Origin: Thermoplasmata archaeon
GTDB lineage: Archaea; Thermoplasmatota; Thermoplasmata; Lutacidiplasmatales; UBA184
NCBI GenBank assembly: GCA_030040035.1
Contig: JASHUJ010000186.1
Location: 1-35,068 of the forward strand
Length of the DNA stretch: 35,068 bases
Reading direction: 5' to 3'
Positions 14,024 through 17,510 of the stretch are shown here, piece after piece (positions within the stretch are counted from its first letter, which is position 1; every line of letters starts with the position of its first letter). The notes under the pieces are model-generated. The model was given only the letters and a program-made list of their open reading frames with translations, made no database searches and had not been told where the DNA came from. Both the position numbers and the translations under genes were made by a program.

Positions 14024-14123
14024 CGGGCTTGCTGGGAGTTCCGTCGCGCGCGCCCGCGCGATTTCGAACCCAGGTCGTTGGCTTCGAAGGCCAACAGGAT
14101 AGTCCAGACTACCCCACAAGCCC
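14024..14123 (-). tRNA. tRNA-Arg (anticodon UCG) with a putative 25-nt intron in the T-loop
   Basis: Minus strand GGGCTTG...CAAGCCC acceptor (7 bp), D-arm GTAGTCTGGACTA, anticodon arm TTGGC-CTTCGAA-GCCAA, T-stem CTGGG/CCCAG with TTCGAA; 32 nt between the T-stem halves instead of 7. Confidence 0.8.
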
Positions 14124-14174
14124 GACCTCCGGCCGGACGCGTTCGTCGCTATTTGGCCGTTCCGAGCGTACGGT

Positions 14175-17100
14175 TCACGGACCGCGGGGGCCGGCCGGGG
14201 CGGGGCGGAATCGGTCGAGCGTGGTCTGGGAGCTCGCGCCGGGGAAGAGCGTCGCCACCGAGTCGGCGAGCAGCTCGATGCGCTGGCGGACGTACGGCGT
14301 GATCCCGTCGATACCGGCGAGGCGTTGGGAGAGCGGCAGATACTTGCGGACCGATGCCTCGTAGACCGTCGAGAGGAGCTCGCCGTCGCACCGGGCCCCG
14401 CCGGGCCGCAAGGCGACGCACCGACCCGAGAGCGGCGGCCGTCGGTAGGACGTACCGCACTCCTTGCAGCGGAACTTCTGAGTCGCGTAGCTCTTCAGAT
14501 TCCCCATGACGTCGGGGAGGAAGTGGGCGTTGAGGACCAGCGTCACCGCCTCGGCGACGTCCACCGCGCGGATCTCGGCCGCGAGCACGGTCGAGCGCTC
14601 GACCATCTCGGCCATCGAGCGGCTCTCGCGGTACGCGGACCGGACCGGGCCCCCCGCGATGCGGCGGGTGTCGTGGGTGAACCGGTACGCCCGGAGCGCC
14701 TCGGGGGTCCCCAGGCGGCGGCCGACCTTGTCGAGGAGGCCGTCGACCTCCTTCGCCGGCCGCCGTTCGTCGGCGGCGCGGTAGAGCGCGAGCGGGTAGT
14801 GGGCCCCGACGTCCAGGTTGTGCGCCTCCTTGTCGACCTCGGTCGGGTCGATCCGCGTCGTCAGGACGAGGGGCTTGTCCATCAGCGCGCCGCGGCTCGC
14901 GGGCAGGTAGGCCCGGGAGAAGTTGAGGAGCGCATCGAGGAGCAGCGTGACGGAGTCCTCGTCCCCGTCGCAATTCCGCCGCTTCGCCGCGTGGAAGACC
15001 GGGTGGGCGAAGCAGGCCTCGGCCTCGGTGAAACCGAGGACGCGGCCCGCGACCGCCCCCGAGGTGTGGGGCGCGAGGGCGGTGACGATCTGCCCTACTA
15101 GGTCCTCGGGGCGCGCGGCCCGGTAGAATGGCTCGAGGTTGTAGAGGCGCACGAGCTCGTCATCGACGAACTGGGCGAGACGAGTGAGATACGTCCCGCA
15201 GGACCGGGAGACGATCAGGTCCTGCGGCGCGAGCTCGATCAGCTGCTCCGCGTCCGTGATCGGAGCCCCGGTCCAGTCCGTCGCGTAGCCGAGCCGCGCG
15301 AGCGTCGGGAGGTCGATCCCGATCTCCGCCGGGCGGAAGTGCGTGAGCGGGAGATCGGTGAGGTCGAATCGGGCCGTCCCGTCCTGGTAGACCGAGATCG
15401 CGTGGGTCGCCCGGAGGATCCCCTTCTCGAGCGGTTCCGGGACCTTGCCCGGCGACGTGAGGCCCTTGACGCCCTTGACGACGGGCACCTTGCCGAGATG
15501 CAGGCGGGAGAGCGCCTCGCTCCACAAGGGGGCGATCGGCAGGGTCTCGGAGACGACGCGGCCGGTCGGCTCGGTGTGGGCTCCGCACGGGCAGCGCGTC
15601 CAGACGGTGGTCCGACCGCACGCCGGGCAGGTCCGGACCCCGAGGTCGACCTTCGTGCCCTCGCGCATCGTGTTGCGGGCCGCCTCCGGCACCGAACGGC
15701 TCGCCCCGCCCGCCGTCCCGACCGGGAACAGCGCGTGGATGTTCGGCTGCATCGCCCGCTGGTACGCCTTCTCCGGTCGGCCGACGCGACCTCCGACGCG
15801 GGACGGGGCGCGCGCTCGTACCGACACTCCCGCCAATCGGCTCACGTAGTCCAGCGGGTCGGTTCCGGGAGGATCGAGTGCGACACGTCGGATGAGGAGC
15901 GAGCCCTCCACCGAGAGCCCGAGCGCCCCCACGAGCGCCGCGCTGGGGTCGGGCTCGCCCCGGAGTCGGTCCGGCTCGAGCGGGAACGACAGGAATCCCA
16001 GGCGGGCGAGCGGCTCGTGCCAGGACGGGTCGCGCGGTAGTTCGAGGGCGCCATCCCGCCAGCTACCGGATCGCTCGACGAACTCGGAGAGCGCTCGGAT
16101 CTCGGCCGTCGTGAGGTCGTGCCAGAAGAGGAGCCAGCGGGGGTGGAGCGGGACGGAGCGCTCGCGCGCGAGCGCGCTGGCCTCGTCGTACGTCGCGAGC
16201 GACGCCCCGTAGACCGGATCGACCCCGGCGGCCCGGAGTTCTTCGAGGTGGCGATCGAGGGAGTACGCGCCGGGCACGAGCGGACGGTTGTTCTCGACGA
16301 ACTCGCCGAAGGAGACGAGCAGCTCGCCGAGGTCGAGGATCCGCGTCACCCGGGGTCGCAGCTCCTCCGCCCGCGCGACGTCGTGGACCGCGGTCACGGT
16401 GCCGTCGTCGAGCTCGACGATCGGTCCGTCGATCGTGTCGCAGACCGCCATCGCGGTCGCCTTCCCAGGGTACTCGAGCTTGACCTGCGTGCCGATCGCC
16501 ACGAAGTGCTGGAGGATCACCATCGCCGCCGGGTTGATCGCGCACGCGGCGAGGCCCGTCGTCCGGGCCCGCCCGTAGACGAGCCGGAACCCGCCCGGGT
16601 GGTTCGGGTGCGCCAGGACCGGCCGGCCCCCGACCGAGTCCTGGAGGTACTTCGGCGTGCGCGTCTCCTCCTCGTCGACCGCGCCGTGGCCGATCTCGGC
16701 GAGGAACTCCCAGCCGTCGATCCCAAGGTTCTCGACGATCTTTCGCACCTTCGCGGCCTTCTGGCAGAGGCCCTCGGCGATCACGAGACACGCCCCTCCG
16801 CGGATCCCGTTGGTCGGGACGCGGGCCAGGTTGCGGAAGGAGCTCACCTCCGCGTCGCCCTCGGTCGCCTCGCCCGAGATCGCGACCGGCACGTTCCGGG
16901 CGATCCGTTCGATCTCCGCGGCGGTCGGCACGTACTGGAGGTGCTGATGGTACTTGTAGAGCGGGATCTCCTCCTGGTACCGCTCGACCTCGCCCGGTTC
17001 GGGCACGTACCGGGCGAGGCCAAGGTCGCGTCGCACGACGTCCGCGAGCAGGACGCTCAGCGCCTGCGCGGTCGCGCCCGCCGCCCGGATCGGTCCGGCG

Positions 17101-17510
17101 TAGTACAGCTCGACATACTGGCTCCCGTCGCGCGCGGGGCACACGTGGACCTCGGCGAGGCCCTCGAGCGGGGCGACCAGGATCCCTTCCGTCAGGATCG
17201 CGAGGCCGACCCGGAGCGCGGCATCGAGCCGGGCCTCCGTCGACGCGCCGCGCGAGGGGTCGCGGGCGAGGCGTCGGGCAATGGTGAGCGCGACCTCTTC
17301 CCGCGGCATCTGGGCGGCCAGGGCCCGGATCTCCGTCGAGATCCCCTCGATCCCGAGGTGGGCGAGCAGCTGCTCGACGCGGGAGGCCATGTCCTGTGCC
17401 CGCGGGATCTCGGTGCGCGCTTCGGGATCATACCCCTCCCGCCGCGCGCGCTCGGCGACCTCGTACGCCCGGTCGACCGAGGATTCGATCGCGCGAAAGT
17501 ACGATTCCAC
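14175..17510 (-). CDS. polC: archaeal DNA polymerase D large subunit DP2
   Basis: 1111 aa; 'ELYYAGPIRAAGATAQALSVLLAD', 'RNLARVPTNGIRGGACLVIAEG', 'RRNCDGDEDSVTLLLDALLNFSRAYLPASRGALMDKPLVLTTRIDPTEVDKEAHNLD', C-terminal Zn 'CKECGTSYRRPPLSGRC'. Confidence 0.98.
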   Translation of the reverse strand: MESYFRAIESSVDRAYEVAERARREGYDPEARTEIPRAQDMASRVEQLLAHLGIEGISTEIRALAAQMPREEVALTIARRLARDPSRGASTEARLDAALRVGLAILTEGILVAPLEGLAEVHVCPARDGSQYVELYYAGPIRAAGATAQALSVLLADVVRRDLGLARYVPEPGEVERYQEEIPLYKYHQHLQYVPTAAEIERIARNVPVAISGEATEGDAEVSSFRNLARVPTNGIRGGACLVIAEGLCQKAAKVRKIVENLGIDGWEFLAEIGHGAVDEEETRTPKYLQDSVGGRPVLAHPNHPGGFRLVYGRARTTGLAACAINPAAMVILQHFVAIGTQVKLEYPGKATAMAVCDTIDGPIVELDDGTVTAVHDVARAEELRPRVTRILDLGELLVSFGEFVENNRPLVPGAYSLDRHLEELRAAGVDPVYGASLATYDEASALARERSVPLHPRWLLFWHDLTTAEIRALSEFVERSGSWRDGALELPRDPSWHEPLARLGFLSFPLEPDRLRGEPDPSAALVGALGLSVEGSLLIRRVALDPPGTDPLDYVSRLAGVSVRARAPSRVGGRVGRPEKAYQRAMQPNIHALFPVGTAGGASRSVPEAARNTMREGTKVDLGVRTCPACGRTTVWTRCPCGAHTEPTGRVVSETLPIAPLWSEALSRLHLGKVPVVKGVKGLTSPGKVPEPLEKGILRATHAISVYQDGTARFDLTDLPLTHFRPAEIGIDLPTLARLGYATDWTGAPITDAEQLIELAPQDLIVSRSCGTYLTRLAQFVDDELVRLYNLEPFYRAARPEDLVGQIVTALAPHTSGAVAGRVLGFTEAEACFAHPVFHAAKRRNCDGDEDSVTLLLDALLNFSRAYLPASRGALMDKPLVLTTRIDPTEVDKEAHNLDVGAHYPLALYRAADERRPAKEVDGLLDKVGRRLGTPEALRAYRFTHDTRRIAGGPVRSAYRESRSMAEMVERSTVLAAEIRAVDVAEAVTLVLNAHFLPDVMGNLKSYATQKFRCKECGTSYRRPPLSGRCVALRPGGARCDGELLSTVYEASVRKYLPLSQRLAGIDGITPYVRQRIELLADSVATLFPGASSQTTLDRFRPAPAGPRGP

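Follow-up and report, generated by a model that had tools for sequence, protein, structure and literature searches.

How can a tRNA gene with a 32-nt T-loop give rise to a tRNA? The question is posed by the minus strand of a 35,068-nt stretch of DNA from a Thermoplasmata archaeon (hereafter, the window), where positions 14025–14123 read as a tRNA-Arg with the anticodon TCG. A sequence-only reading of the window had proposed that the loop contains a tRNA intron. Our analysis supports that proposal: the locus very probably encodes a functional tRNA-Arg(UCG) and contains, between positions 59 and 60, a 25-nt archaeal bulge-helix-bulge (BHB) intron that would be removed by ordinary EndA/RtcB splicing. 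The support comprises a strict BHB, compensatory changes among orthologues, intron-free outgroups, the lack of any other UCG gene among those found in a complete relative, a conserved putative promoter element, and the presence of EndA and RtcB. Every available test gave the result expected of a spliced archaeal tRNA intron, with splicing itself predicted from these features. While the earlier reading was limited to one window, the insert is one of many 59/60 introns in its genome.

Results

A strict BHB in the T arm

The acceptor, anticodon and T stems and the 32-nt T-loop are all present as first described, and excision of 14038–14062 leaves the T-loop TTCGAAT (Table 1). Although the sequence-only reading saw no strict BHB, one exists, recovered both by parsing the locus and by RNA folding. 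A 4-bp central helix, TTCG/CGGA (pairs U-A, U.G, C-G and G-C), has a 3-nt bulge on either side, AAA on one strand and ACT on the other, with the T-stem CTGGG/CCCAG as outer helix and a 7-bp hairpin, already noted in the earlier reading, as inner helix. RNA folding returns precisely this arrangement as the minimum-energy structure (-50 kcal/mol), with z = -3.8 relative to dinucleotide shuffles; the centroid structure retains the inner hairpin and lacks the T-stem and central helix. In BHB introns each bulge is cleaved between its second and third bases, and the interval delimited by this rule is the same 25 nt that had been picked out by eye. The register is TTCGAA^T, and intron-free outgroups have TTCGAAT or TTCAAAT at this place. 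Splicing would join ...GGGTTCGAA directly to TCCCAG.... For one orthologue (L195), removing the intron raised the ARAGORN score from 102.2 to 125.2.

Table 1. Features of the tRNA-Arg(UCG) locus, in window coordinates
Feature	Positions	Strand	Basis or remark
5′ exon, tRNA positions 1–59: acceptor, D arm, anticodon arm (TCG), 5′ T-stem, TTCGAA	14063..14123	(-)	sequence, ARAGORN, family alignment, fold
Intron, 25 nt, position 59/60: A TCGCGCG GGCG CGCGCGA CGGA AC	14038..14062	(-)	BHB parse, fold, family alignment
3′ exon: T60, 3′ T-stem CCCAG, acceptor CAAGCCC	14025..14037	(-)	sequence, family alignment
BHB central helix, 5′ half: TTCG = T54 T55 C56 G57, partner 14040–14043	14065..14068	(-)	parse, covariation, fold
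BHB central helix, 3′ half: CGGA, intron-internal	14040..14043	(-)	parse, covariation, fold
5′ bulge AAA; predicted cut 14063/14062	14062..14064	(-)	parse, fold; cut predicted by BHB rule
3′ bulge ACT; predicted cut 14038/14037	14037..14039	(-)	parse, fold; cut predicted by BHB rule
Inner hairpin, 7 bp, TCGCGCG/CGCGCGA, loop GGCG	14044..14061	(-)	genus-wide covariation, fold
TATA-like element CCAAATA, ~27–33 nt upstream of tRNA nucleotide 1	14150..14156	(-)	putative promoter element
DNA polymerase D large subunit DP2, just upstream of the tRNA	14175..17510	(-)	three Pfam DP2 domains

General tRNA finders handle the gene poorly, as had been anticipated. ARAGORN detects the tRNA but places its 3′ end within the intron, at 14048, and the gene falls below the cut-off of the Rfam tRNA model in the window (23.8 bits against 29 in the genome search). 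Since the general finders that we tried missed or mis-ended such genes, the number of tRNA genes in these soil archaea may have been underestimated.

Conservation of the intron within the genus

A pattern scan of deposited genome contigs yielded 65 stretches with the intron-bearing gene, 63 of them labeled either Candidatus Lutacidiplasma silvani or Thermoplasmata archaeon; of the other two, one is labeled Euryarchaeota and the other "bacterium". The host belongs to Ca. Lutacidiplasmatales, an order of soil Thermoplasmata with ~69% G+C (PMC9287336). When 61 related genomes were searched at the DNA level, most of those from the same genus proved to have the insert-bearing gene. Comparison with relatives bore out the proposed intron: the 29 full-length same-genus orthologues that we parsed have inserts of 23–34 nt, all of which leave TTCGAAT on splicing. 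Beyond the BHB the inserts are little conserved; the exons are nearly invariant. The AAATA core of the TATA-like element lies at near-constant spacing in almost all same-genus orthologues.

The alignment of these orthologues, whose rows are related and whose counts are thus of non-independent events, is paired in 98.6% of cells overall and in all 116 cells (100%) of the central helix, in 29 of 29 sequences. For the inner helix, changes occur on both sides in 5 of the 5 pairs scored, and the observed covariation score was unmatched by any of 500 shuffles. The GTTC/GAAC pairing that the sequence-only reading had placed at the base of the hairpin does not hold in orthologues that read CGAAACT or CGAGACT, and was rejected; the conserved pairing is TTCG/CGRR, kept in all orthologues compared.

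Four outgroups (L061, L062, L063 and L065) have a tRNA-Arg(UCG) without the insert. A genome from another family of the same order (G038) has a 13-nt insert at the same point (L066). There, A replaces G57, and the intron base is changed to match, so that pairing is kept (TTCA/TGAA). The same tRNA (L066:279-378) also has an anticodon-loop insert, and its 13-nt intron is close to the lower limit of the lengths cited for introns of archaeal tRNAs (11–129 nt). In the most complete relative, G028 (100% complete), the intron-bearing gene is the only tRNA-Arg(UCG) found; an Rfam tRNA search and locus parsing detected no intronless tRNA-Arg(UCG) in this genome.

Splicing machinery

Nearly all relatives searched encode one EndA locus, with two PF01974 domains in one frame. 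A same-genus EndA (L086) has two PF02778 and two PF01974 stretches, that is, two units of N-terminal plus catalytic domain in a single chain, and matches the alpha'2 structures of Archaeoglobus (1r0v, 2gjw). The EndA present is of the two-domain, alpha'2 type. The RtcB ligase (PF01139) is also present. Intact copies of both enzymes were seen in relatives only, because those of the window's genome are cut by contig ends.

Many tRNAs with 59/60 introns

The T-loop intron of tRNA-Arg(UCG) has much company. In G028, 14 of the ~43 tRNA genes found (42 Rfam hits with E ≤ 10 and, in addition, Leu), or about a third, have 59/60 introns: Asn(GUU), Arg(UCU), Arg(UCG), Glu(CUC), Ser(GCU), Ser(GGA), Ser(CGA), Gln(CUG), Ala(GGC), Gly(UCC), Asp(GUC), Lys(UUU), His(GUG) and Leu(UAG). 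Only four canonical 37/38 introns were seen there (Met, Tyr, Leu-UAA and Trp). The window's own genome has at least 11 tRNAs with 59/60 introns: Arg(UCG), Arg(UCU), Ser(GCU), Ser(GGA), Ser(CGA), Leu(UAG), Ala(GGC), Gly(UCC), Lys(UUU), Gln(CUG) and His(GUG). Central pairs in the 14 introns of G028 total 47, compared with a mean of 24.4 and a maximum of 39 in 20,000 trials with shuffled introns, a test slightly favored by a parse that had picked registers with at least 3 pairs.

We parsed 120 distinct 59/60 introns, from many tRNAs and including many orthologues. Opposite position 57, tRNAs with TTCG have C facing G57 in 67 of 68 distinct introns, and those with TTCA have G, not U, facing A57 in 49 of 52. 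The conserved A57.G mismatch suggests a non-canonical pair that is tolerated or preferred beside the 5′ bulge. By eye, intron interiors look dissimilar between different tRNAs, and orthologous introns also differ strongly. It is possible that the introns spread by copying between tRNAs; since the interiors change too fast, even among orthologues, such copying would be untraceable.

Several other tRNAs drew attention during the survey. In the window's genome, two tRNA-Asn(GUU) genes (L027, G000:C14; L026, G000:C124) have an insert at the same T-loop site, with a BHB central helix that looks weak (2 of 4 pairs by eye). Two tRNA-Ser(CGA) genes of this assembly (L220, G000:C6; L221, G000:C199) have identical exons and different 59/60 introns, reflecting either a duplicate or the presence of mixed strains in this metagenome-assembled genome. 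A second Cys(GCA)-like tRNA (L022, G000:C50:15707-15778), with an odd anticodon arm and an irregular D arm, is possibly a pseudogene or a mis-called tRNA. Probable second introns of ~30 nt occur in the D arms of tRNA-Lys(UUU) (L198, L222, L315, L324) and tRNA-Leu(UAG) (L314, L318, L319, L321) genes that also contain a 59/60 intron; for tRNA-Lys(UUU), a BHB search of these D-arm inserts yielded no convincing mature tRNA. Single D-arm inserts, apparently non-canonical introns, were seen in two tRNA-Met genes (L025, L178) and in L188. An ARAGORN-based scan called L188 a tRNA-Gly; judged by its sequence, it is probably a tRNA-Arg(GCG) with a D-arm insert.

Distribution in Thermoplasmata

We searched more widely with a covariance model of the T-arm BHB, using stricter Infernal filters in searches over 40 genomes. 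Under strict filters, 141 of 300 Thermoplasmata genomes had at least one match. With lax filters, genomes of family f1 had 4–13 matches, two other families of the same order (f2 and f3) 3–5, and others 0–2, the counts outside f1 being lower bounds because the model was trained mostly on f1. Matches also occur in a few other families of the phylum. Among the distant families sampled, most have the intron in tRNA-Arg(UCU). These findings suggest, short of proof, an old intron in tRNA-Arg(UCU) and later gains in family f1. In most other Thermoplasmata families, 59/60 introns number 0–2 per genome, compared with 14 in G028 and at least 11 in the window's genome.

Discussion

If the T-loop contains an intron, how would it be removed? 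In the precursor, CGGA at the 3′ end of the intron would pair with T54–G57 (TTCG) to form the strict BHB atop the T-stem. The two-domain (alpha'2) EndA would be expected to cut each 3-nt bulge, and RtcB to ligate the exons and thereby create the T-loop TTCGAAT. Splicing would probably precede T-loop folding and modification. As TTCRAA..T is common to nearly all archaeal tRNAs, any intron ending in YGRA or GGAR plus two bases can form such a BHB, a plausible reason for its recurrence in about a third of the G028 tRNA genes.

Could the insert instead be retained, giving a mature tRNA with an enlarged, hairpin-bearing T-loop? The precursor is stable, a point in favor of retention, which we nonetheless regard as improbable in the extreme: the insert varies in length (23–34 nt) and is poorly conserved next to near-invariant exons, it is absent from outgroups, the splice rule gives the consensus TTCRAAT in every parsed case, and the BHB geometry that has been kept would not be required if the insert stayed. 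We find it scarcely credible that the insertion inactivated this copy, leaving a decayed pseudogene while another gene decodes CGA and CGG. Although the unspliced gene scores below a gene-finder cut-off, as a pseudogene might, at least 29 related species have an insert at this site and nearly invariant exons, the putative promoter element is kept, and the only UCG gene found in the 100%-complete G028 is the interrupted one.

The genome is very GC-rich and the inner stem resembles a CG repeat, features that might produce a chance hairpin or an assembly artifact. The likelihood of either is negligible, however, and the comparative data refute them: the site is common to independent genomes from independent projects, and the 47 central pairs in the 14 tRNAs of G028 exceed every shuffled total. 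A spliced BHB intron remains our reading of the locus, with some points against it. The EndA and RtcB genes of the window's genome are incomplete, as noted above. In reviews, alpha'2 EndA is said to have narrow specificity and the introns of euryarchaea to be exclusively canonical, and T-arm cleavage here is a prediction.

The archaeal BHB intron itself is of a known type and position: 59/60 is a recorded intron position (PMC4090602) and BHB introns are known in T-loops (PMC6379350). What is surprising, judged against later reviews, is the concentration at 59/60 in an alpha'2 lineage. Enzymes of the alpha4 and alpha'2 types are described as cutting only canonical BHB motifs, and euryarchaea that have them as containing single introns at 37/38 (PMC4090602; PMC4033280; PMC6379350); the 59/60 abundance is therefore a notable expansion. 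The strict BHB seen here is consistent with alpha'2 specificity, the difference lying in how often and where it is used. We tentatively propose, though we would not yet count it as probable, that position 59/60 acts as a hot spot for introns, which spread across the tRNA set of Lutacidiplasmatales because the recognition arm of the intron pairs with TTCR, common to nearly all tRNAs, and that alpha'2 EndA tolerates many non-canonical sites as well as the A57.G mismatch. If so, the accepted view that an alpha'2 EndA goes with few, canonical introns would no longer hold. As a T-loop intron must be removed before the elbow forms or positions 54–58 are modified, splicing would be essential for many tRNAs at once. 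An alpha'2 order with about one-third of tRNA genes interrupted at one non-canonical site offers a direct test of whether EndA type sets intron diversity.

How do these introns compare with known systems? They share position, BHB, short length and the mature T-loop TTCRAAT with the non-canonical 59/60 introns described in other archaea (PMC4090602; PMC6379350). However, reviews assign most non-canonical introns to Crenarchaeota and Nanoarchaeota, whose EndA is of the (alpha-beta)2 type, whereas those described here occur often in a euryarchaeal order whose EndA is alpha'2 and are concentrated at one non-canonical site. The intron expansion and transposition of Thermoproteales, as summarized in later papers (Sugahara 2008; Fujishima 2010; via PMC4033280, PMC4090602), likewise involves many intron-bearing tRNA genes, some with non-canonical introns. 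Compared with the Thermoproteales of those summaries, one non-canonical site dominates here, and the intron sequences have diverged too far for any recent copying from one tRNA to another to be visible.

The enzyme, too, has known counterparts. Ferroplasma is also a Thermoplasmata archaeon. Its homodimeric EndA cuts minimal BHB substrates (PMC8707768). Like the alpha'2 enzymes of Archaeoglobus (1r0v/2gjw), Thermoplasma (2ohc) and Ferroplasma (PMC8707768), the EndA described here has two PF02778-PF01974 units per chain and would be expected to need a strict BHB. Unlike those enzymes, its predicted substrates include introns of the T arm and, apparently, the D arm, together with the A57.G-mismatch class.
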